A DNA stretch of 59,941 bases from a virus. Under the pieces are notes generated by a model. That model made no database searches, was not told the origin of the DNA, and saw only the letters and a program-made list of their open reading frames with translations. Below are positions 28,812 to 58,622 of the stretch, piece after piece (the first letter of the stretch is position 1; each line of letters opens with the position of its first letter). The position numbers and the translations under genes were made by a program. The stretch is taken from positions 1 to 59,941 of IMG/VR virus record IMGVR_UViG_3300050821_003226, one strand, 5' to 3'.

Positions 28812-28888
28812 GTCCGCAGGCGTAGGCGAGGGATAGCGTAGACCCGTTCGTTCATTGCTCGTTGTGGCGGCCCGGAGGGCACCCACCG

Positions 28889-30403
28889 ATGTCGCGAAAC
28901 ATTTCGGACACACTCAACAAGATGAAGGCGGCCATCGCGGGCGCGAACGGGAACGACGCCTTCATGAAGGCCATCACGACGTCGCTCGGGCTCGTGAACT
29001 ACGACCTCGAAGCGGCCGCGAAGCTCATGTTCCCGTGGGGCGACAAGATCACGCCGCTGCGCAACGAGACGCCGCGCTCGAAGTCGAACCGCGGCGACAC
29101 GGCGCACCGGTGGAAGCAGATCAACGGCATCAACACGACGAACCTCCCGCCCGGAGTCTCGGAAGGCAACCGCGGTGGCGTCGTGACGACCACGGAGAGC
29201 GATAAGCTCTCGACGTATGCCGGCCTCGGCCTCGAGGACTACGTCACCGAGGAAGCGCGGTACGCGGCCGAAGGGTTCGACGACGTCCTCACGCTCGCCT
29301 CGGAGAATCTCCTCAAGGCGACGATGATCTCCGAAGAGAAGATGATCTTCGGCGGCAACTCGAGCGTCGCGCTCGGCACGCCGGCGACGCCGACGGTCGC
29401 GAACGGCCTCACGACGGGCGGCGCGCTCTCGAACACGACGTACTACGTCACGGTCGTGGCGCTGACGCACGACGGCTGGCAGCGCGCGACGGTCGGGGCC
29501 GGCGTCGTCCAGCAGATCATCCGGACGAACGCCGACGGCTCGACCGACACGATCAACGGCGGCACGTCGATCCCCTCGGCCGTCGGCAACGCCACGCTCT
29601 CGGGCGGCGGCTCGACCCAGACGCTCTACGCGAATACGACGGCCATTCAGGGCGCGGTCGCGTACGCGTGGTACATCGGCACGTCCGCGGCGCACCAGTA
29701 CCTCTCGCAGATCACGACGATCAACTCGGCGAACATCACGGCGGTGCCGGCGAACACGTTCCAGGACGCGCAGACGCTCGCGGCGGCCGACTACTCGAAC
29801 GTCGGCACATACGGCTTCTCGGGCCTGCTCTACTCGGGCCCGCTCAACTCGACGACGAGCGGCTACTACAGCGCGCTTGCGACGGGCACGCCGGGCACGG
29901 GCACGCAGTTGACGTCGGACAACGCCGGCGGCATCAAGGAGTTCAACGCGCTGCTCAAGGATCGGTACGACAACTACCGGCTCTCGCCGGACACGATCTG
30001 GTGCAACTCGCAGGAGATCAACTCGATCAAGGTGCTCGTCGTCAAGAACGGCGGCGCCCCGCTCGTTCGCTTCGTCGGGGATATCAGCTCGCCGGCGACG
30101 AACCTGCAGGCCGGCGCGATCGTCGCGTTCTACACGAACCCGATCACGATGGAGTCCATCCGGATCCGCGTGCATCCGTTCGCGGCGCCGGGCACGATTC
30201 TCTTCACGACGAAGGAATCGCCGTACGCCGGCTCGCGTGTCTCGACGCTCGTCGAGATGCTCTGCCGGCAGGAGTACTACTCGACGCTCTGGCCGATGCG
30301 CTCGCGCAAGCGGGAGTACGGCGTGTACGTCGACGAAACGCTCCTGATGTACTTCCCGCCCGCGTTCGCGGCGATCACGAACATCGCGCCGACGCTCTCG
30401 TAA
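28889..30403 (+). CDS. Major capsid protein with Ig-like insertion
   Basis: 504 residues from ATG 28889, with GGAGGG at 28872 on. HK97-fold features: KLMFPWGDKITPLRNETPR, TTESDKLSTYAGLGLEDYVT, ATMISEEKMIFGGNSSVAL. At ~163-290 a Thr/Gly-rich Ig-like segment is inserted (TYYVTVVALTHDGWQ, VAYAWYIGTSAAHQYLSQI). The HK97 part resumes at ADYSNVGTYGFSGLLY and ends RKREYGVYVDETLLMYFP. It closely follows the SU10-type capsid layout. The insert would project from the capsid surface. Confidence 0.9.
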   Translation: MSRNISDTLNKMKAAIAGANGNDAFMKAITTSLGLVNYDLEAAAKLMFPWGDKITPLRNETPRSKSNRGDTAHRWKQINGINTTNLPPGVSEGNRGGVVTTTESDKLSTYAGLGLEDYVTEEARYAAEGFDDVLTLASENLLKATMISEEKMIFGGNSSVALGTPATPTVANGLTTGGALSNTTYYVTVVALTHDGWQRATVGAGVVQQIIRTNADGSTDTINGGTSIPSAVGNATLSGGGSTQTLYANTTAIQGAVAYAWYIGTSAAHQYLSQITTINSANITAVPANTFQDAQTLAAADYSNVGTYGFSGLLYSGPLNSTTSGYYSALATGTPGTGTQLTSDNAGGIKEFNALLKDRYDNYRLSPDTIWCNSQEINSIKVLVVKNGGAPLVRFVGDISSPATNLQAGAIVAFYTNPITMESIRIRVHPFAAPGTILFTTKESPYAGSRVSTLVEMLCRQEYYSTLWPMRSRKREYGVYVDETLLMYFPPAFAAITNIAPTLS

Positions 30404-44517: not shown

Positions 44518-44590
44518 GCTGGAGTAGCTCAGTCGGTAGAGCGCCTGCCTCGTAAGCAGGGGGTCGCCCGTTCGATCCGGGCCTTCAGCT
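44518..44590 (+). tRNA. tRNA-Thr (anticodon CGT)
   Basis: Complete cloverleaf. Acceptor GCTGGAG/CTTCAGC (one G-U), D stem GCTC/GAGC, anticodon stem CCTGC/GCAGG with loop CTCGTAA, so anticodon CGT, and T stem GCCCG/CGGGC with loop TTCGATC. No CCA is encoded. ACG is by eye the dominant Thr codon of the phage, so this tRNA can support translation. A 14-base palindrome, CTCCAGCGCTGGAG (44511-44524), spans its 5' end. Confidence 0.93.
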
Positions 44591-44987
44591 CTCAGGGATG
44601 ATGTAAGCGCATATGTTCGAGTCGCGGGATCGGTAGCGGAGCTCGAGTCCAAAGGGCTGTGACACGGCCAGCCACGGGCGCCGGACGTACCCGAATACCT
44701 GCGTAGGCGAACGAGGAGCGGAGTCGCGACCGATAACCTGAAGGATCTATCACCCGGTCAGTGAAGCGAGGAAGCCGGACGGGCGTAAGTATCGTGTCGT
44801 TTTATTACCGAGCGGAATAAAATCCCGAGCGGGAATAAAACTGCAGCCAGATTGCCAGACGCCGGAACCGCGCAGAGACCACTTCGAGGAAGGGCCACGA
44901 CGCCGTCGACATCCCAATGTGTCGGCGGCGTTCGTGCATTTCGGTACTGGCGGCGAAAGACTTCTCCTGCTATAATCTTTTCTACCT
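44591..44987 (+). other. Non-coding region after tRNA
   Basis: About 400 bases with no convincing gene. It holds a hairpin (GGCTG/CAGCC, 44656-44674), the AT-rich repeats at 44799-44841, and a leader before the HTH gene. I found no second tRNA: one T-loop-like string (near 44613) has no matching stem. The region might carry a small RNA, an attachment site or an operator. Confidence 0.4.
44799..44841. repeat. AT-rich inverted/direct repeats, possible operator
   Basis: GTTTTATT at 44799-44806 faces AATAAAAT (44816-44823) and pairs perfectly with AATAAAAC (44834-44841). The two AATAAAA units each follow CGAGCGG (44809-44815, 44826-44832). In this GC-rich genome such A/T-only blocks are rare. 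It lies about 150 bases ahead of an HTH gene, as an operator or replication/integration site could. Confidence 0.5.
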
Positions 44988-45182
44988 ATGACAGAAAACG
45001 AACTTCTCACGGTCATCGAAGCGTCCGTTTTTGTCGGCGTCGCGGTCGGCGCCGTCTATAAGCGGATCGACGCGAAGAAACTCGCGAAGACCGTCCGCTT
45101 CGGAAAGATTCTCGTCGCGCGCGTCGACGTCCTCGAGTGGAAGAAAGAACGCGAAGCGGAGGCGCGCGCGATTCTCAAGTAG
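44988..45182 (+). CDS. Excisionase-like HTH protein
   Basis: 64 residues: LTVIEASVFVGVAVGAVYKR and IDAKKLAKTVRFGKILV, then VDVLEWKKERE. It is a winged HTH of the MerR/excisionase type. No integrase lies nearby. It may regulate the recombination genes after it, or act on the repeats upstream. Confidence 0.7.
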   Translation: MTENELLTVIEASVFVGVAVGAVYKRIDAKKLAKTVRFGKILVARVDVLEWKKEREAEARAILK

Positions 45183-45224: not shown

Positions 45225-46289
45225 ATGGCTCCGGTTATAGATGGTGAAGGTGGCGTAGCACTCTCCGACGAGGCCGCGGCCGAGCGCGCGTGGCTCGTCG
45301 ATCGCCGGTCCGCGATCACCGCGACCGACGTCCCCGCGATCCTCGGCCTCTCGCCGTTTTCCTCGCCGATCAAAGTCTGGCGCTCGAAGATTGGTGACAC
45401 GGAGGACCAGGCCGACAGCGAGGCGATGTACTACGGTCGACTCTTCGAGCGGCCGATCCTCATGGCGTACGAGAAGCGGACGGCACAGGAGCTCGTCTAT
45501 CCGGAACCGTTCCGGATGATGCGATCGCTCTCCGTGCCGCAGATCGGGGCGACGCTCGACGCCCGCCGGCTCCGCGACGGCGCGCCCGTCGACGCGAAGA
45601 ACGTCGGCTTCCGTTCCGAGGTCTACGGCGACGAGGGGACGGACAACTTTCCGGCGCACTACGCCGCGCAGCTCATGATGCAGATGTTCGTGACCGGTGC
45701 CGCGGTCGCGGACCTCGCCGTGCTCTTCTCGCGCTACGACTTCAAGGTCTATACGATCGAGTACGATCGCGAGACGGCCGAGGGGCTCGTCGCGCGGTGC
45801 CTCGACTGGTACCAGGCCTACGTCGTCGGCAATACGGCGCCGCCCGTCGACGGCACGCCCGACTACACGGCGTTCGTGAAGCGGCTGAAACAGGCGACCG
45901 ACATGGTGATCGTCGCGACGCCGGAGCAAGAGGAGTGGGCGCGGAATCTCAGCGTCACGCGCGAGCAGCTCGAGATGCTCGATATGGAGAAGAGCCGCCT
46001 CGAGAATCTGATTAAGACGGCGATCGGCGAGGCGAAGGGGATCGAGAGTCCGCGCTTCCGCGCCCTGTGGTCGCAGGCGAAGGACTCCGTCGGTCCGGAT
46101 CTCGAGCGGATCGCCTACGAGCTCGCGAAGCGCTACGTCTTGGCGAAGCATGAGCTCGCGCTCGACCACGGCGATCTGTCGTGCGTACTCACGGCCGAGG
46201 GCGTTCTTGCCGAGCTCAAGGAGCAGAAGGACATGCAAAAAGTCACCCGCACCGGTTCGCGCAGGTTCACGTTCAAGTATGAGGGATAG
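45225..46289 (+). CDS. YqaJ-family viral exonuclease/recombinase
   Basis: 354 residues, with AGGAGG upstream. RRSAITATDVPAILGLSPFS, MYYGRLFERPILMAYEKRT, IGATLDARRL, GAPVDAKNVGF, then FPAHYAAQLMMQMFVTGAA. This matches YqaJ nucleases: the acidic and Lys residues GATLDA, DAKN and YAAQLMMQM form the metal site. It would digest double-stranded ends in recombination with an annealing protein. Confidence 0.88.
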   Translation: MAPVIDGEGGVALSDEAAAERAWLVDRRSAITATDVPAILGLSPFSSPIKVWRSKIGDTEDQADSEAMYYGRLFERPILMAYEKRTAQELVYPEPFRMMRSLSVPQIGATLDARRLRDGAPVDAKNVGFRSEVYGDEGTDNFPAHYAAQLMMQMFVTGAAVADLAVLFSRYDFKVYTIEYDRETAEGLVARCLDWYQAYVVGNTAPPVDGTPDYTAFVKRLKQATDMVIVATPEQEEWARNLSVTREQLEMLDMEKSRLENLIKTAIGEAKGIESPRFRALWSQAKDSVGPDLERIAYELAKRYVLAKHELALDHGDLSCVLTAEGVLAELKEQKDMQKVTRTGSRRFTFKYEG

Positions 46290-46294
46290 CCCCG

Positions 46295-47365
46295 ATGGCG
46301 ACAACCGAAGAGAAGGAAACGCGCGAAGGCGATAGCGTCGCGCTCGTCCGGAAGGAAACGCGGACGCAGATCGTCGAGGCCGGATCCGCCGCGTTGAGCG
46401 CGCAGATCGAGGCGCGAATCAAGGGCCAGTTCTTTCTCGCGCGGCAGTTCCCGCGGGACTGGCGCGAGGTCCGCTCGAAGCTCCTGCAGGCGTTCGAGCG
46501 CCCGATGCTCGCCGAGGGCGCGATCTACTCGAAGCCCGTCGGCGGGAAGCGCGTCGAGGGGCTCTCGATCCGCTTTGCCGAGGAAGCGTTCCGCGCGATG
46601 GGGAACGTGAGCGTCGAGACGATGCTCGTCTCCGACGACGAGGATAAGCGCGTCTACATCGTCAGCGGTATGGACATGGAGACGAACGCGATCGTCCCCG
46701 TTACGGTCGTGGTGACGAAGCAGGTCGAGCGCTCGAGCACGAAGGCGGGCGACGTCGTGCTCGGCGAACGGCTGAACTCGAACGGGAACAAGACCTTCAT
46801 CCTCAAGGCGCGGAGCGAGGACGATTACCGCGCGAAGGAGCAGGGCGCGCTGCAGCGGGCGCGGCGCGACGTCATCATCTTCTTGACGCCGGGCGATATC
46901 CAGGAAGAGTGCGAGACGAAGATCCGCGAGACGCTCCGCGATCGCGACCGGAAGGATCCGGAGGGGACGATCAACGCGCTGACGGATTCGTACTACCGCC
47001 TCGGCGTCTCGGTCGCGGAGATCGAGAAGTTCCTCGGCCATTCGGTGAAGACGATCAACGAGGCGGAGCTCCATATCCTCCGCGTGACGTACACGATGAT
47101 CAAGGAGGGCGAGGGAACGTGGGCGATGGCTGTCGAACACAAGCTCGGCGCGAACACGGGCGCCGACGCCGGCGACGATAGCGCGAAGCCGGCGAAGACG
47201 GGCGCGGCCGCGAAGCTCGCCGAGGTCGCGAAGGCCGGCGAGGCGCAGACGACGGAAGAGAGCCGGATCGATGCGCTTCGGAAGAAGAAGACCCGGACGG
47301 ACGAAGAGAACGAAGAACTCCGCCAGTACGAGCTCGATCACCCGCGCGCGGCCGCGGCCGAGTAA
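46295..47365 (+). CDS. Candidate single-strand annealing protein
   Basis: 356 residues, just after YqaJ. FFLARQFPRDWREVRSKLLQ, RPMLAEGAIYSKPVGGK, VEGLSIRFAEEAFRAMGNVS, YIVSGMDMETNAIVPV, RRDVIIFLTPGDIQEECETK. I recall this family as a common partner of YqaJ or lambda-Exo-like nucleases in phages, and a RecT/Erf-like role is an inference. The C-terminus is Ala/Lys/Glu-rich and disordered. Confidence 0.6.
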   Translation: MATTEEKETREGDSVALVRKETRTQIVEAGSAALSAQIEARIKGQFFLARQFPRDWREVRSKLLQAFERPMLAEGAIYSKPVGGKRVEGLSIRFAEEAFRAMGNVSVETMLVSDDEDKRVYIVSGMDMETNAIVPVTVVVTKQVERSSTKAGDVVLGERLNSNGNKTFILKARSEDDYRAKEQGALQRARRDVIIFLTPGDIQEECETKIRETLRDRDRKDPEGTINALTDSYYRLGVSVAEIEKFLGHSVKTINEAELHILRVTYTMIKEGEGTWAMAVEHKLGANTGADAGDDSAKPAKTGAAAKLAEVAKAGEAQTTEESRIDALRKKKTRTDEENEELRQYELDHPRAAAAE

Positions 47366-47427
47366 GGCCGACCAATACGCCCGCGTCGTCGATCGGCGGC
47401 GCGGCTTCCCCCGAGGAGTACTCCCCG

Positions 47428-48678
47428 ATGAAGATCGTTCGACTCGAAGCAGAAAACGTCAAGAAGTTGAAGGCCGTCACTATCACGCCCGACGGCGCGA
47501 TCGTGCAGATCACGGGTCCGAACGGATCCGGCAAGACGTCGGTCCTCGACGCGATCTATATGGCGCTCGCCGGCAAGCGCGCGATCGACTCCGAGCCGGT
47601 GCGCAGCGGCACGGAGAGCGCGCGGATCCTCCTCGATCTCGGCGAGGTCATCGTGAGGCGGACCTTCCGCGCCGACGACGGAACGACGAAGCTCGAGGTC
47701 ATGACGGTCGACGGGGCGCGGTTTCCGTCGCCGCAGAAGATGCTCGATTCGCTCCTCGGGACGCTGACCTTCGATCCACTCGCATTCTCGCGCGCCGACG
47801 CGAAGGGTCAGCTCGAGACGTTGAAGGCGCTCGTCCCGCTCGAGATCGACCTCGAGCAGCTCGATTTCGAGAACCGGCGCGACTTCGACGTCCGGACCGG
47901 TGTCAGTCGGACGATCCGCGAGCTCGAGGCGCAGGTGAAGGGCCTCCATCTCGTCGACGTCGCGGATCCGCCCGACGTCGCGGCGCTCCTGAACCAGCTC
48001 GAGAAGGCCGTCGAGCATAACCGCGAGGTCGATATCGAGGCGCGCCGGCGGTCGGATTATCACGCGTCGATCGCGCATAAGGATATCCGGCTCGCGAAGC
48101 TCCGCGAAGAAGTCCGCGAGCTCGAGACGGATCTCGGGCTCATGCGCGACGAGGTCGCGATGTGGGGTCCGGAGGAGACCGTCGTCGACGTCCGCGAACT
48201 CCGCGAGCAGATCGACGCGGCGACGGACGTGATCCGGACCTACGAGGCGGCGCAGCGCGTCGTGAGGGAACGGAAGGAGCTCCTCGCGAAGCTCGATAGC
48301 GCACACATCGAGGCCGAGGATCTCACGGCGAAGATAGAGGCACGGACGGCGACACGGACGGCGGCGATCGCGGCCGCGAAGATGCCGGTCGAGGGGCTCG
48401 CGTTTGGCGACGGCGAGGTTCGGTACAACGGGCATCCGTTCAGCCAGGCGAGCGGTGCCGAGCAGCTCCGCGTCTCGGTCGCGATCGCGATGGCGGGAAG
48501 TCCGAAGCTCCGCGTCCTCCGCGTGAAGGACGGTTCGCTCCTCGACTCGAAGAGCCTCGCCATCCTCACGGAAATGGCCGAGCTCCGCGACTTTCAGGTG
48601 TGGATCGAACAGGTCTCGGAGTCCGGGACCGTCGGGATCGTTATGGAGGACGGCTCGATCGTGCCGGCGCGCGCATGA
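47428..48678 (+). CDS. SbcC/RecF-like SMC-type ATPase
   Basis: 416 residues. N-terminal LEAENVKKLKAVTI and Walker A GPNGSGKT (30-37); middle coiled coils (~150-310); then SQASGAEQLRVSVAIAMA (ABC signature-like) and LRVLRVKDGSLLD (Walker B position, with Asp). It is a compact Rad50-like ATPase with no long arms. Phages use such proteins in recombination or replication repair, often with a nuclease partner. It follows the annealing candidate. Confidence 0.8.
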   Translation: MKIVRLEAENVKKLKAVTITPDGAIVQITGPNGSGKTSVLDAIYMALAGKRAIDSEPVRSGTESARILLDLGEVIVRRTFRADDGTTKLEVMTVDGARFPSPQKMLDSLLGTLTFDPLAFSRADAKGQLETLKALVPLEIDLEQLDFENRRDFDVRTGVSRTIRELEAQVKGLHLVDVADPPDVAALLNQLEKAVEHNREVDIEARRRSDYHASIAHKDIRLAKLREEVRELETDLGLMRDEVAMWGPEETVVDVRELREQIDAATDVIRTYEAAQRVVRERKELLAKLDSAHIEAEDLTAKIEARTATRTAAIAAAKMPVEGLAFGDGEVRYNGHPFSQASGAEQLRVSVAIAMAGSPKLRVLRVKDGSLLDSKSLAILTEMAELRDFQVWIEQVSESGTVGIVMEDGSIVPARA

Positions 48679-49037
48679 GCGCGAACGCCGGCGTCGATCC
48701 GCAAATGCTGATCACCTGCAAGTGCGGAAACAAGATTTCGATTGCGCCACCGCGCGCGATCGCGACGAACTGCTCGCAATGCAAAAGCATCCTGACCGTA
48801 ACGGAGGATGGCGATTGGTTCAAGCTGGAGATATCGGCACCGAAGAAGGAAATCGACACGTTCAATAAGTGGGGCGTTTCGACGTTAGGGCGCGATGGTT
48901 TGTCGCTTCTCGTGCCCGCGGCGACGGAGCGCATGACATACGACGAAGCGCTTACGCTCGCTGCGTGGCTGGTGGCGATGGCCGGCGACGACGAGATACG
49001 GTTCGCCGAGATCCTCGACGCGGTCAGGAATACATGA
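48675..49037 (+). CDS. Zinc-ribbon hypothetical protein, 120 aa
   Basis: ATG in the upstream stop. CKCGNKISIAPPRAIATNCS and QCK form a zinc ribbon. A helical C-terminal domain follows (YDEALTLAAWLVAMAGDD). No function is known. Confidence 0.55.
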   Translation: MSANAGVDPQMLITCKCGNKISIAPPRAIATNCSQCKSILTVTEDGDWFKLEISAPKKEIDTFNKWGVSTLGRDGLSLLVPAATERMTYDEALTLAAWLVAMAGDDEIRFAEILDAVRNT

Positions 49038-49228
49038 GCGACGAACGCGTCAATCCCGTCTTCACCGTGACCGGTCGATTCGGCGGCTACGCCCACGAGA
49101 AGCTCGTCGGCACCTATACCGGCGACGCGACGAAGGCGGACGTCGAGAAGGCGTTCTTCGGCCCGTTCGGTGGCCGGGATGCGCACGCCGCGAACGGCTG
49201 CTTCACCGTCATCGTCCACGCGGACTAG
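49034..49228 (+). CDS. Hypothetical protein, 64 aa
   Basis: ATGA overlap. A small alpha/beta protein: VFTVTGRFGGYAHEKLVGTY and CFTVIVHAD at the end. No match in my knowledge. Confidence 0.5.
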   Translation: MSDERVNPVFTVTGRFGGYAHEKLVGTYTGDATKADVEKAFFGPFGGRDAHAANGCFTVIVHAD

Positions 49229-49232
49229 GGCG

Positions 49233-49571
49233 ATGATCGACCGCGACGAACAGCCGACGCTCTTCGGGATCCCACCGATGGGAACCGGGCAGGTCGTAGT
49301 GGTCGGCGCTCCGACCGCGCGCGAGGTGCCGGATCGCGCGCGGCAGGAGCGGGCGGCGTTCGTCCGGAAGCAGGTCGAGCAGGTGATCAAGAAGCGGAAG
49401 ACGGCGGCCGCATATCGGTCGAAGGCAAAGAAGCTCCTCGAGAAAGCCGAGGCCGTCGGCGACACCGCGGCCGGCGACGAAGCGCGGGCGCTCTACTTGC
49501 TCGCCGAGCGCGCCGAGACGCGCGCCGAAACCTTTATCCTCGCGCTGATCGCGCGCACGGAGCTCCGGTAA
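49233..49571 (+). CDS. Hypothetical helical protein, 112 aa
   Basis: The first 20 residues contain QPTLFGIPPMGTGQ. The remainder is basic and helical (FVRKQVEQVIKKRKTAAAYR, ARALYLLAERAETRAETFIL). It may be a DNA-binding or assembly factor. Confidence 0.5.
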   Translation: MIDRDEQPTLFGIPPMGTGQVVVVGAPTAREVPDRARQERAAFVRKQVEQVIKKRKTAAAYRSKAKKLLEKAEAVGDTAAGDEARALYLLAERAETRAETFILALIARTELR

Positions 49572-49757
49572 ATGGCGGTGCAGATTATCGAGATGGGCGA
49601 GTGCGTGATCCACGGCCTCGTCCCGGTCTGGCGCTACACCTGGAACGCGCGCCCCGAGTTTACGAGCGGCCCGTGTTGCCTCCCCTGCATGATCGAGTAC
49701 CTCGCGGAGCACCTGAATAAGGTCACGAATCCTCGCCTGATTCAGTTCGGCGAATGA
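49572..49757 (+). CDS. Small Cys-containing protein, 61 aa
   Basis: Directly after the upstream stop. Cys11 and GPCCLPC (near 34-39) suggest a zinc site. It resembles small zinc-knuckle proteins of phages; no family was identified. Confidence 0.5.
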   Translation: MAVQIIEMGECVIHGLVPVWRYTWNARPEFTSGPCCLPCMIEYLAEHLNKVTNPRLIQFGE

Positions 49758-50122
49758 CGACCCTCCCCTGCCCGGAGTGCGGCGCGCCGCTCCAGCTCAA
49801 AGACTCGAAGTACGGCAAGTTCTATGGCTGCTCGATGTGGCGCACGACCGGCTGTAAGGGGTCGCACTCGGCGCATAAGGATACCGGCGCGCCGATGGGC
49901 TTGCCGGCGCGGGCCGCGGTAAAGGCCGCGCGCGTCCGGGCGCATCGCGCCTTCGACTCGCTCTGGACCGGCGGCGCTATGACGCGGAAGGCGGCTTACA
50001 AGTGGCTCCAAAAAGCAATGAAGCTCTCGAAGCGCGAATGCCATATCGCGGCATTCGACGAGGCGCAGTGCGAGCAGGTGATTCTCGAAGTCTCCCGTCT
50101 CCGATCCCCGAGGTCTGCATGA
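49754..50122 (+). CDS. Topoisomerase-type zinc finger protein, DUF3268-like
   Basis: 122 residues. CPECGAPLQLKDSKYGKFYG, then CSMWRTTGCKGSHSAH: a zf-C4 type finger as at the end of topoisomerases. A DUF3268-like helical part follows (LWTGGAMTRKAAYKWLQKAM). The likely role is single-stranded-DNA contact near recombination enzymes. Confidence 0.75.
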   Translation: MTTLPCPECGAPLQLKDSKYGKFYGCSMWRTTGCKGSHSAHKDTGAPMGLPARAAVKAARVRAHRAFDSLWTGGAMTRKAAYKWLQKAMKLSKRECHIAAFDEAQCEQVILEVSRLRSPRSA

Positions 50123-51969
50123 GCACGAAAACGTTCCTCTCGCTCGCTCCGAATCTTAGGCTCCCGCTCGAGTCCGTCTCGCGGACGTTCGGCATCCTCG
50201 CCGCGCGCGGCGCCGGCAAGAGCAATACGGCCGCCGTGATGGCCGAGGAAATGTTCGCCGCGAAGCTCCCGTTCGTCGTCATCGACCCAGTCGGCGCATG
50301 GTACGGCCTCCGCTCGAGTGCCGACGGGACGGGCGCGGGTTTGCCGATTCCCATCTTCGGCGGGAAGCATGGCGATCTCCCGATCGAGCGCGAGAGCGGC
50401 GAGCTCGTCGCGGATCTCGTCGTCGAGAAGCGGTTGACCTGTGTGATCGACCTCTCGCAGTTCGAGTCCGAGGGAAGCAAGAAGCGGTTCCTCCTCGCGT
50501 TCGCGAAGCGGCTCTATCAGAAGAACGAGAGCCCGCTCCACCTCTTTCTCGAGGAGGCGGACGACTACATCCCGCAGAAGCCGATGGGGAACGACGAGAA
50601 CTACCTCCTCCGGGCGTGGGAGAACATCGTTCGTCGCGGCAGGAGCCGCGGCCTCGGGATGACGATGATCACGCAGCGGAGCGCGGCGATCAACAAGATG
50701 GTCTTGACGCAGGTCGAGACGCTCTTCGCGATGCGCACGACGGGCCCGCAGGATATAGCGGCAATCGAGGCGTGGGTGAAATACAACCAAGCGAGCAAGG
50801 ACGTTCTCGCGACGCTCTCCTCGCTCGGCGACGGCGAGGCGTGGGTCTGGTCGCCGCACTTCCTGAAGACGATGGCGCGCTTCCAGATCCGGCGGCGGGC
50901 GACGTTCGACTCGGGCGCGACGCCGACGAACGTTCGCGCGGCGGATACGCGGCCGCCGGCGACGCTGGCCGACGTCGACCTCGAGGCGCTGCGTACGAAG
51001 ATGGCCGCGACGATCGAGAAGGCGAAGACGGAGGATCCGGCGCTACTCCGGCGCGAGATCGCGGAACTCCGGAAGAAGGTCGCCTCGCTCGCGGCGCCAC
51101 CGAAGGGACTAATCGCGCCGGCCGAGCTCGAGGCGATCCGCGTCGCGGAATACGCCGGCGGTCGAAAGCGGGAGCGCGACGATATCCTCCGCGATCTCGC
51201 GAAGATCAAGAAGCATTTCGACGCCCTTACGGAGTCGTTCGCGCGGATGGGGCCGATCATCGACCAGGCCTTCGGGCGGCCGGAGATCGCGGTCTCGGTA
51301 GATCTCGCGCGCCCGGGCGGCGATCGGAGCTTCGCGGTCGTCGCGGCGCGCCGCGGCGGAAAGGTCGAGATCCTCGATCGAATCGAGATCCATCGCGGAA
51401 ACGTCGATTCTGTAAACCATCGCGAAGCAGGACTACGTTCGGTTTCCAAATCTGCGGCTGGTTTACAGGAAGGCGGGAAAATCGCGGGCGTAGAACAGCG
51501 GATCCTTGATACGCTCGCCGGCCTGGCCGACCTCGGCATCGATCGCCCGGACAAAGCGACGACCGCGGCGCTCGTCGGCTACCATCCGAACGCGAAGAGC
51601 TTCGCGAACGCGATCGGCGCGTTGCGCTCGGCCGGCCGGATCGCCTATCCGACCGCGGGCGCGATCGCGCTCACGGACGAAGGCCGGGCGATCGCCTCGA
51701 GTAACCTTGCGATCGGATCGGTCGCGGAGCTCCATCGGGTTTGGTTCGACAAGCTCGGCGCCGTCGCGCAACGGATCCTCGCGCCACTCCTCGACGCGTA
51801 TCCGGAGAGCGTCGAGACGGCCGCGATCGCGAAGGCCGCCGGGTATCACCCGAACGCGAAATCGTTCGCGAATATGAAGGGCCGTCTGCGTACGCTCGGG
51901 CTTGTCGACTATCCGGGGCCCGGGCAGATGGTAGCGACTGCGGTCCTCTTTCCGGAGGGCTTGCGGTGA
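50119..51969 (+). CDS. HerA-type ATPase with duplicated winged helices
   Basis: 616 residues. Walker A AARGAGKSN (28-36), IDPVGAWYGL, Walker B LHLFLEEADDY (140-150), and arginine motif region RRGRSRGLGMTMITQRSAAI. This is the HerA/FtsK-like DUF87 pattern. After ~310 comes a coiled part, then SVDLARPGGDRSFAVVAARR, which looks like an RNase-H-like strand pair. Two tandem winged-helix copies share YHPNAKSFAN at ~489 and ~576. HerA motors translocate DNA and work with nucleases. Confidence 0.8.
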   Translation: MSTKTFLSLAPNLRLPLESVSRTFGILAARGAGKSNTAAVMAEEMFAAKLPFVVIDPVGAWYGLRSSADGTGAGLPIPIFGGKHGDLPIERESGELVADLVVEKRLTCVIDLSQFESEGSKKRFLLAFAKRLYQKNESPLHLFLEEADDYIPQKPMGNDENYLLRAWENIVRRGRSRGLGMTMITQRSAAINKMVLTQVETLFAMRTTGPQDIAAIEAWVKYNQASKDVLATLSSLGDGEAWVWSPHFLKTMARFQIRRRATFDSGATPTNVRAADTRPPATLADVDLEALRTKMAATIEKAKTEDPALLRREIAELRKKVASLAAPPKGLIAPAELEAIRVAEYAGGRKRERDDILRDLAKIKKHFDALTESFARMGPIIDQAFGRPEIAVSVDLARPGGDRSFAVVAARRGGKVEILDRIEIHRGNVDSVNHREAGLRSVSKSAAGLQEGGKIAGVEQRILDTLAGLADLGIDRPDKATTAALVGYHPNAKSFANAIGALRSAGRIAYPTAGAIALTDEGRAIASSNLAIGSVAELHRVWFDKLGAVAQRILAPLLDAYPESVETAAIAKAAGYHPNAKSFANMKGRLRTLGLVDYPGPGQMVATAVLFPEGLR

Positions 51970-52505
51970 ACGACGAAGAGAAAATGGCCGCGTACATCCG
52001 CGAGGCGAACGCGGCGCGCGAGCGCGAGCGCGAGTATCAGCGGATCAAGAAGCAGGCGAAGACGTTCAAGCTCCCGCTACCGCGGCGCGAGATCTCGCAG
52101 AGCGATTCCGAGCGGCCGACGTTCCTCGCCGCGTGCGCCGTCGCCGGCGTACCGGAGCCGGTCTCGGAATGGCAGTTCGCGCGGCCGGCGCGCGCGTGGG
52201 CCTTCGACTACGCGTGGCCGGAGGTTCGGCTCGCGCTCGAGGTCCAGGGCGGGATCTTCAGCTTCGGGCGGCATACGACGGGCGAGGGGTTCGGCCGCGA
52301 TATGGAGAAGTGGAACGCCGCGGTCGCCCTCGGCTGGTTCGTGATTTTCTGTATCCCGGGCGAGAAGAACAAGGTCGCGCTGACGCCGAAGCGGCGCGAG
52401 ATCTCGTGGCAGATCCCGGCGCTGATGAACCTCGACACCGCGCGCATGGTCCGGCGCGTCTTCGACGAGCACGCTAAACTACGATTCAGGGAGGCGACGC
52501 CATGA
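51966..52505 (+). CDS. PD-(D/E)XK/Vsr-like nuclease
   Basis: 179 residues, GTG in the HerA stop. WAFDYAWPEVRLALEVQGGI: Asp81 and Glu92-x-Gln94 fit the D...ExQ/K core. His103 and Glu107 (FGRHTTGEGF) and ALGWFVIFC complete the fold. Related phage proteins are Vsr-like or resolvase-like nucleases. Adjacent to the HerA ATPase, it can act with it as a motor-nuclease pair. Confidence 0.72.
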   Translation: MNDEEKMAAYIREANAAREREREYQRIKKQAKTFKLPLPRREISQSDSERPTFLAACAVAGVPEPVSEWQFARPARAWAFDYAWPEVRLALEVQGGIFSFGRHTTGEGFGRDMEKWNAAVALGWFVIFCIPGEKNKVALTPKRREISWQIPALMNLDTARMVRRVFDEHAKLRFREATP

Positions 52506-53182
52506 GTGGAGGAAGTTGGAACTACGCCTATCGCGCCGTCGAGGAAATGTCCGAGAGTCTCTCGAGGTCCGACGTCGCTGAACGCCGGGCCTTCGGCGCG
52601 CTGCTCGCGAAGGTCGGTAAGGCGATGTATGCGATCGAATGGGTCGACTCCTGCGACTGGAAGCGCGGAGATGAGATGGATCCGATCCGTACCGCACTTG
52701 GTGATCATGCGGCGGCGCTAGTGCTCGACGCTGCGGCCACGACGCTGAGTGAGTATATCGCCCGCGCCCGTGCAACGCTCGCGAAGTATACGCCGCCGGC
52801 CGCGCCGACCAGCATGACCATTATGGATTCCGTTGCGACCGACACCGCGAAGGAGATCGCCGAGATCGCGCGCCGGCGCGTCGAGCTGATTATGACGAAC
52901 CGCGAGAAACTCTGCGAAGCGTTCATTGCCGAGACGGGACTCAAGCCAAGCGAATGCGAGCTCGTCGAAGATACGAGCGATCCCTACCGGACGGTGTTGT
53001 CGATCAGGCCGCGGACGCCGCGTACCATCGCGATCGAAGAGGTACAGATCAGCGATCGCGAAGCTCTCGCGGAAGATATACAACGACTCGTTGAAGGTCC
53101 GATGCGTCCGCCGAGCCGTTACGATATCGCGGACGGCTTGCTCGCGCTCGGCTACCGGAAGGTCGTCGAGGTCGTCCAGTGA
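52502..53182 (+). CDS. MSGGSWNY-family phage protein
   Basis: 226 residues. The N-terminal 90 residues match a recurrent phage family: MSGGSWNYAYRAVEEM, FGALLAKVGKAMYAIEWVDS, CDWKRGDEMDPIRTAL. The rest is a separate helical domain. Unknown function. Confidence 0.65.
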   Translation: MSGGSWNYAYRAVEEMSESLSRSDVAERRAFGALLAKVGKAMYAIEWVDSCDWKRGDEMDPIRTALGDHAAALVLDAAATTLSEYIARARATLAKYTPPAAPTSMTIMDSVATDTAKEIAEIARRRVELIMTNREKLCEAFIAETGLKPSECELVEDTSDPYRTVLSIRPRTPRTIAIEEVQISDREALAEDIQRLVEGPMRPPSRYDIADGLLALGYRKVVEVVQ

Positions 53183-56993: not shown

Positions 56994-58622
56994 ATGACGA
57001 CGGACGTTACGAAAGCTCCGACCCCGATCGAGTTCAAACTCATCCCGCTGGCCTCGATCATCGAGAGTCCATGGAATCCGCGGCATCATTTCGATCCGGT
57101 GAAAGAGGCGAACATGAAGGCCTCGCTCATCGCGCACGGCCAACTGACGATCGCGCTGGTGCGGCCCATCGCGGGCGGGAAGTTCGAGCTCGCCGCCGGG
57201 CATCGCCGGTTCCGCGGGGCGAAGGCGGCCGGCCTCGCGACGCTCCGGTGCGAAGTGCGCGAGATGGAAGACGGCCCGTTCTGCGAGATTCTCGGGATTG
57301 AGAACGACGAACGCGATAACCTGCACCCGCTGGATCAAGCGGAATCGTACAAGCTGCTGATGGAGCATTCCGGGTACGACGTAGCGAAGATCGCGGAACG
57401 GATCCAGCGGAGCCACGACTTCGTCCATGATCGCCTCCGGTTACTGCAACTCATTCCGGCGCTTAAGGCGGACTTCCTCGCCGGGCGGTTCCTGCTCGCG
57501 CATGCGATTCTCCTAGCCAAGCTCTCGGACGAGCAGCAGGCAAAGGCGATGTCGACCCGCGTCGCGCACGCGGGGATGAGCCGCACGATCGGTGGCCTGT
57601 ATCGCGATCAGGAGGCGACGCTTGATAAGGGCGAGTTTCCGTTTGTTCCGGTTTCTCCGGCGGAGCTGCAGGAGTGGATCAACGACAACTGCCGGTTCGA
57701 GCCGGAGGCGGTGCAGCTCGAGGAGGATTTCCCCGAGACGGCCGCGTTGCTCGAGTCCGCGCAGGAGACCGGCGTCAAGACCGTCTACATCACGGACGGC
57801 TATCAGGTCTCGCAGGGCGCGCGCGATGTGAACGTGAAGACGATTCCGGAACGTTCGTGGAAACGAGCGGACGGTGAAGAAGGCTCGAAGACCTGTGACA
57901 AGGCCGTCGTCGGGATCTATGCCGATGGCGATCGGCGCGGGGAAGCGATCGGCGTATGCGTCAGCAAAACGAGCTGCACCGTGCATTGGGGCGCGGAAGT
58001 GAAGGCGCGGCACGAGCGCGAGGCGAAGCGGGAGAAGAATCCGAATGCGACCGCGGGCAAGCCGAAGAAGGCGAAGGCCCTCAAACCCTATACGCCGGCG
58101 CAGATCAAAGCGAAGCGCACGACGTCGATCCGGGTCGCGGCCGCGAAGCCGATGGAGGCCGTCCTCGAGCGCGCGCACCTGAAACCGTCACGCCAGCTCA
58201 TCGCGGCCGCGCGCACGTGGGCGACGAAACAGGCCCGCGTGAAAGGCTCCTTGAGCGCCGAGCAACTCATTGTCGCGCAGTTCGCCGCGCGGTTCGGGAG
58301 TATCGAATGGGTGCTCCGCGAGCGGATCGGCGAGCTCAAGATCTTCGGCGTCGACCAGGTCCTTAAGATTGTGAAGGTCGACACCTGCATCTATTGCGGA
58401 TGCGGCGCCGAGAATGCGTGTGATTTGGGCTACAACCCGAAGACGTACGGCCGCCTCCGCTGCAACTGGATCTCGAAGGCTCCATTCGTCTGCAGCAACC
58501 CGGTCTGCGTCGCCCAACATGAGAAGGCCGGCGGAAAGCTCGACGCGAAGGCGAAAGCCGCCGTCGGCGCCGCGGTACTAGACGATGCGGCCGCGGCCGA
58601 CGACTTCGACGACGAGGACTGA
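56994..58622 (+). CDS. ParB-family protein with Cys-rich C-terminus
   Basis: 542 residues, GGAG upstream. ParB N-domain: IPLASIIESPWNPRHHFDPV, LIAHGQLTIALVRPI, FELAAGHRRFRGAKAAG (GHRR at 69-72), then HTH SGYDVAKIAERIQRSHDFVH. A long tail (200-540) has zinc-like CIYCGCGAENAC and CSNPVCVAQH. It binds DNA as a ParB-like clamp or a non-partition transcription factor. No ParA is visible in the window. Confidence 0.85.
   Translation: MTTDVTKAPTPIEFKLIPLASIIESPWNPRHHFDPVKEANMKASLIAHGQLTIALVRPIAGGKFELAAGHRRFRGAKAAGLATLRCEVREMEDGPFCEILGIENDERDNLHPLDQAESYKLLMEHSGYDVAKIAERIQRSHDFVHDRLRLLQLIPALKADFLAGRFLLAHAILLAKLSDEQQAKAMSTRVAHAGMSRTIGGLYRDQEATLDKGEFPFVPVSPAELQEWINDNCRFEPEAVQLEEDFPETAALLESAQETGVKTVYITDGYQVSQGARDVNVKTIPERSWKRADGEEGSKTCDKAVVGIYADGDRRGEAIGVCVSKTSCTVHWGAEVKARHEREAKREKNPNATAGKPKKAKALKPYTPAQIKAKRTTSIRVAAAKPMEAVLERAHLKPSRQLIAAARTWATKQARVKGSLSAEQLIVAQFAARFGSIEWVLRERIGELKIFGVDQVLKIVKVDTCIYCGCGAENACDLGYNPKTYGRLRCNWISKAPFVCSNPVCVAQHEKAGGKLDAKAKAAVGAAVLDDAAAADDFDDED

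Follow-up and report, generated by a model that had tools for sequence, protein, structure and literature searches.

What does a HerA-type ATPase do in the early operon of a tailed phage, and what directs it to its DNA? The question is raised by IMG/VR virus record IMGVR_UViG_3300050821_003226, the whole 59,941 bases of which we refer to as the window. The record is that of a tailed phage, in which genes for the terminase large subunit, the head protease, the tape measure and tail proteins precede an early-type operon of co-oriented genes (45225-53182) that includes herA and, directly after it, a gene for a nuclease. A preliminary description of the window had proposed that HerA and the nuclease form an end-processing or anti-competitor system. 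Our analyses do not support such a pair, and point to a motor whose C-terminal tail, built of two winged helices with matched DNA-reading helices, may direct it to a particular DNA sequence.

A HerA-clade motor without the docking domain

The product of herA (Table 1) had been described as a HerA-type ATPase, and its profile and fold matches agree: it exceeds the Pfam cut-offs for both DUF87 (35.9 bits, cut-off 23.2) and HerA_C (27.9 bits, cut-off 22), Pfam gives no other match, FtsK_SpoIIIE included, and the fold is that of HerA. In an AlphaFold2 model of the whole protein, with a predicted local distance difference test (pLDDT) score of 84, the motor and the tail are confident and the linker between them is mostly disordered. 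When residues 2-277 of the model were compared with solved structures, HerA chains matched at Z ~28 (Foldseek E 8e-14) and the FtsK motor at Z ~17. G33 and K34 of the motor are near-invariant, and E146 and R187 invariant, among 74 sequences. By profile and by fold, the protein is a HerA-clade motor.

NurA is known to dock on the HAS domain of HerA (PMC12977600), and DUF4297 likewise docks on a HerA HAS domain (PMC11291478). When the model was aligned to the solved HerA structures, this N-terminal docking domain was found to be absent from the phage protein, in which residue 2 already falls opposite residue 109-152 of the HerA chains; the protein thus begins with the motor. The linker is not conserved in the alignment of HerA relatives, and a stretch of it found only in the window protein (residues ~393-459) bears no resemblance to any other open reading frame (ORF) at hand.

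Two winged helices with matched recognition helices

Modelled alone, the tail forms two winged helices (pLDDT 93). In a structure search the first matched the DNA-binding repressors MarR, DtxR and MntR at Z ~11 over ~70 residues; searches with the tail fold gave mainly single winged helices, and the lack of tandem matches there says little. By sequence we gathered 93 distinct proteins with a motor, a variable linker and a tail, and in the 88 in which both repeats were scored we compared each column of repeat 1 with that of repeat 2 within the same protein, against random re-pairing. At columns 33-40, which make up the third helix, identity within a protein was 0.68-0.99, as compared with 0.13-0.49 after re-pairing (z up to 22), and the preceding loop (columns 28-32) and wing column 50 were matched likewise. 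The scaffold (columns 7-25 and 54-60) was mostly near chance, at 22% versus 18%. Overall, recognition-helix identity was 0.870 versus 0.307 re-paired, the highest of 1000 shuffles being 0.372; the matched columns had been picked once the pattern showed in the 11 proteins examined first. With redundancy removed (60 tails), the values were 0.861 and 0.306. Six of six plasmid relatives, which were fetched later and played no part in finding the rule, follow it by inspection.

At 918 identical-residue positions with degenerate codons, codon identity was 0.485, compared with the 0.480 expected from the codon usage of each protein, so that the two helices have been held alike at the protein level for long enough to randomise synonymous sites. 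Although tandem repeats can be homogenised, it is hardly credible, with synonymous codons randomised at the matched positions and the flanking scaffold near chance, that the match stems from recent tail duplication or gene conversion and not from selection for one DNA sequence. On these comparisons, selection rather than recent gene conversion appears to keep the helix pair alike, and on the plain reading both helices would have to read one and the same DNA sequence.

The DNA encoding the helices is palindromic in both copies (CGCGAA N4 TTCGCG; 51591-51606 and 51855-51870), and also in the relative L006, a pattern that the codons of the AKSFA motif probably produce by chance.

Exchange of motor and tail among phages and plasmids

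Between proteins, helix identity stayed at ~0.3 across the whole range of motor identity, 30 to 90% (Spearman 0.06); helix type is thus almost unrelated to motor similarity, as it would be if motor and tail shuffle. Of the 69 pairs whose motors share 75% identity or more, 57 have helices that are no more than 40% identical; the relative L001 has a motor 76% identical to that of the window protein but different helices. The motors of 28 pairs with identical helices ranged from 34 to 94% identity, some of these pairs lying at just 34-43% (38% for the window and L006). These pair counts overstate the number of independent events, given that a single project, or a group of related phages, is the source of some loci, and L063 and L067 are near-identical both upstream and downstream. 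In pairs compared as DNA, ~0.9 kb of motor DNA was 78-85% identical, the rest of the locus was mostly unmatched, and homology stopped near residue 308, a domain boundary. To judge from these sequences, motor and tail are exchanged as separate modules.

Around the HerA loci we found genes for integrases, ParB-like proteins, replication initiation, methyltransferases and DnaB-type helicases, none of them constant. ParB-like genes are often near members of this HerA family in phages, both in the window (56994-58622) and in ~31 HerA loci. Relatives also occur on large plasmids of Mycolicibacterium, Clavibacter, Mycobacterium and Tsukamurella, several of them beside FtsK/SpoIIIE-type genes; at plasmid loci L199 and L200 a HerA gene with such a tail adjoins FtsK/SpoIIIE-type genes, and in one case EccB, from a type VII secretion locus, is there as well.

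A motor that may be addressed to its own replicon

The HerA motor fold, the absence of the HAS domain, the two winged helices of DNA-reading type, the selected helix match and the shuffling of motor and tail were computed directly, and on them we base a proposal to which we give a probability of roughly 60%: that the protein is a double-stranded DNA motor whose two-winged-helix tail addresses it to its own replicon through two copies of one half-site, in the manner of FtsK and the FtsK orienting polar sequences (KOPS). A ring-shaped HerA-clade motor would act on double-stranded DNA, the C-terminal winged-helix pair would bind DNA on the element's own genome by reading one half-site twice, and binding would load or orient the motor at that specific address, by analogy with KOPS for FtsK. 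Its job would most likely be the handling of the phage genome in early replication or recombination, or prophage or plasmid maintenance (segregation, multimer resolution or DNA clearing).

FtsK recognises KOPS through the winged helix of its gamma domain, which makes loading directional (PMC2680272). The phage protein resembles FtsK and SpoIIIE in being a motor of the HerA/FtsK superfamily with a C-terminal winged helix, a match seen here at the level of the fold, and by analogy sequence-guided loading would be likely; it differs in that its motor is of the HerA clade by both structure and profile, in that each chain has two winged helices with matched recognition helices, in that the address varies by element, and in that no KOPS-like repeated word was found in the window. 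TraB of Streptomyces plasmids, a plasmid-encoded FtsK-type double-stranded DNA motor, reads short repeats by a C-terminal winged helix, but it belongs to another motor clade and has one winged helix rather than two.

Several observations weigh against the proposal that the tail addresses the motor to its own replicon. The structure search covered winged helix 2 less well; the window contains no genome-wide over-represented word, and a tandem-array search of it was also empty; and elements with the same helices share no half-site pair, inverted or direct, of 5-mers or 6-mers beyond multiple testing. Moreover, the neighbours of HerA vary widely, so that context does not fix the role. A discriminative dyad search across helix classes returned only G+C palindromes, and synteny of close relatives, which have mostly motor DNA alone in common, exposed no co-swapped site. 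An inverted repeat in the linker-coding DNA of herA (Table 1) was also considered as a binding site; TGTAAACC occurs within the window only at this repeat (2 versus 0.10 expected), but the repeat is absent from a relative with the same helices and was rejected.

Two other roles are serious rivals. The protein could be a replication initiator, its tail binding an iteron-like origin, its motor assisting in the opening or remodelling of that origin, and its specificity diverging as in relatives of lambda O; tandem winged helices and replicon-specific diversity would fit this role, and genes for replication initiation proteins, DnaB-type helicases and ParB-like proteins often lie nearby. We consider it unlikely, however, in that no iteron cluster was found in the window, the HerA clade translocates double-stranded DNA, and a separate initiator already adjoins HerA in several loci. 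Slightly less likely again is that the tail represses the early operon by binding to operators and is switched by the ATPase, with helices that diversify like immunity specificities. The specificity of phage repressors is known to diversify, and the winged helix resembles MarR/DtxR repressors, but a repressor would not normally carry a complete, conserved HerA motor, and the repeats upstream of herA in the plasmids have no common pattern.

If tails do address motors to their own replicons, temperate phages and large plasmids might hold a common pool of freely recombining HerA motors and address tails that serves as a replicon-identity code, each motor acting only on DNA with its own address and so setting self/non-self or compatibility among co-resident elements; this broader idea we advance only tentatively. 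We found no description of such tails in the literature searched, and as far as that literature shows the pattern is new. Known HerA motors are described together with docked partner enzymes and, in one structural study (PMC12977600), contact DNA without sequence preference. Some 90 phage and plasmid HerA motors with a matched, switchable DNA-reading helix pair would make up a naturally occurring set of DNA motors addressed by sequence, and the family, with its many helix types on similar motors, would lend itself to working out the recognition code of winged helices. Were the address replicon-specific, it would bear on how co-resident phages and plasmids distinguish their own DNA.

The adjoining nuclease is not a conserved partner

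The gene that follows herA had been described as encoding a Vsr-like nuclease, an assignment that its relatives support. The protein is a member of phrog_503; it has no Pfam match itself, and 3 of 8 relatives match DUF559. A profile of the relatives weakly matched 3r3p (E 0.0085), a 'Mobile intron protein' that we take to be the Vsr-like homing enzyme I-Bth0305I. The family's characteristic D, E, H and D are kept (D81, E92, H103 and D112, together with K115) and are invariant across the 8 relatives, so that the PD-(D/E)XK active residues show no sign of the loss in homologues that would have spoken against the proposed pair.

Linkage gave a different answer. When a profile of the nuclease family was run against fetched HerA flanks (8-12 kb on each side where the contig allows), the nuclease was near HerA at 0 of 102 other HerA loci, and HerA was near the nuclease at 0 of 87 other nuclease loci. 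Just 1 of 40 whole HerA-bearing viral records encodes the nuclease, at 5 kb of a 112-kb record that has HerA farther along than 77 kb. This HerA occurs in 1 of 50,697 annotated phages and the nuclease in 138, with zero overlap; in annotated phages the nuclease gene stands by itself, either close to replication O/P or NinB genes or a short way ahead of the terminase.

A complex of the two proteins that uses ATP to resect ends or to act against competitors, akin to HerA-NurA or HerA-DUF4297, would be in keeping with the GTGA overlap of the genes, which is indeed present at 51966, with the kept nuclease residues, and with the HerA-nuclease complexes already known (PMC12977600, PMC11291478). It is nonetheless very improbable, and we rejected it, on the strength of the reciprocal linkage tests, which found no other phage that keeps the two genes linked, and of the missing HAS domain. 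The nuclease gene appears from these comparisons to be a chance neighbour of herA rather than a conserved partner, and the nuclease is an independent phage enzyme of the nin-region type. Its likeness to the I-Bth0305I, Vsr and DUF559 nucleases does not extend to their setting, in that here it is no intron homing enzyme.

The phage HerA shares the motor fold of archaeal and bacterial HerA-NurA (PMC12977600), but it has neither the HAS domain nor a NurA partner, and adds the tandem winged-helix tail. With the anti-phage SIR2-HerA and DUF4297-HerA systems (PMC11291478) it shares the motor fold and superfamily-level profile matches, those from PADLOC being confined to the motor core. However, it scores far under the cut-offs of the NCBIfam HerA_antiphage models (48.5 versus 800 and 36.2 versus 850 bits), has no SIR2 or DUF4297 partner and no HAS domain, and lies in a phage early module. 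PADLOC models mad3 and mad8, which belong to one defence system, have superfamily-level matches to the SbcC-like and HerA genes of the window.

The remainder of the operon

HerA excepted, the operon is ordinary. Its ORFs are present approximately where the preliminary description had placed them, and the gene list given there was right in outline. Stop/start overlaps (ATGA or GTGA) occur at 48675, 49754, 50119 (ATGA), 51966 (GTGA) and 52502.

Table 1. Features of the herA operon, with sizes in amino acids (aa).
Feature	Position	Strand	Basis
YqaJ-type (lambda-exonuclease family) recombination exonuclease, 354 aa	45225..46289	+	PF09588, phrog_434, TIGR03033
356-aa protein, phrog_3657; candidate single-strand annealing partner of the exonuclease	46295..47365	+	phrog_3657 E 1e-47; position after YqaJ
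SbcC/RecF-like short ATPase, 416 aa, phrog_1499	47428..48678	+	AAA_23 50.7 bits; phrog_1499 E 5e-90
Small genes	48675-49757	+	ORFs
120-aa protein, zinc-ribbon-like by eye	48675..49037	+	CKCG...CSQC (CxC...CxxC) in translation; ATGA overlap with preceding stop
DUF3268 / topoisomerase-type zinc-ribbon protein, 122 aa	49754..50122	+	PF11672 (DUF3268) 89.3 bits; PF01396 (Zn_ribbon_Top1) 37.9 bits
HerA-type ATPase with tandem winged-helix tail, 616 aa	50119..51969	+	DUF87, HerA_C; AlphaFold2; fold match
Motor (ATPase) domain, residues 2-277	50122..50949	+	structure match; conserved residues
Variable linker, mostly disordered, residues 331-451	51109..51471	+	pLDDT <50 at 331-347 and 386-451; helix 350-384 between
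Inverted repeat CTGTAAACCA / TGGTTTACAG, perfect 10-nucleotide arms, 39 nucleotides between; low-G+C patch of herA linker	51410..51468	.	weak candidate site
Winged helix 1, residues ~456-523	51484..51687	+	alignment of relatives, tail models
Recognition helix 1 and preceding loop, HPNAKSFANAIG, residues 489-500	51583..51618	+	column comparison, tail model
Winged helix 2, residues ~548-612	51760..51954	+	alignment of relatives, tail models
Recognition helix 2 and preceding loop, HPNAKSFANMKG, residues 577-588, matches helix 1	51847..51882	+	column comparison, tail model
phrog_503 / DUF559-Vsr-like nuclease, 179 aa; adjoins HerA, not conserved partner	51966..52505	+	phrog_503 E 6e-22; relatives' profiles
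Further gene downstream of nuclease	52502-53182	+	ORF; overlaps preceding stop

The recombination setting that had been described is supported by profiles for its YqaJ nuclease (PF09588 at 66 bits, cut-off 22; phrog_434 at E 6e-58; TIGR03033 above cut-off) and for its SbcC-like ATPase, relatives of which were found in 150 annotated phages. At 5 other HerA loci an SbcC-like gene is found no more than 8 kb away, and YqaJ is near HerA at 3. The annealing function suggested for the 356-aa protein was not confirmed, the protein having no Pfam match, no tie to a known annealing family and a match only to phrog_3657, a family of 'unknown function'. The several zinc-ribbon proteins listed in the same description come down to one by profiles (49754..50122) and a second that is recognised by eye only, the 120-aa protein having no match in the family profile searches. 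YqaJ and its neighbours are an ordinary recombination cassette.

Just upstream of the operon are a transfer RNA gene, tRNA-Thr (CGT), at 44518-44591 and then a small excisionase-like helix-turn-helix gene (44988-45182). Farther away, in the head region, positions 28862-30403 encode a 513-aa protein that strongly matches phrog_13692 (E 1e-107), a function-unknown family.

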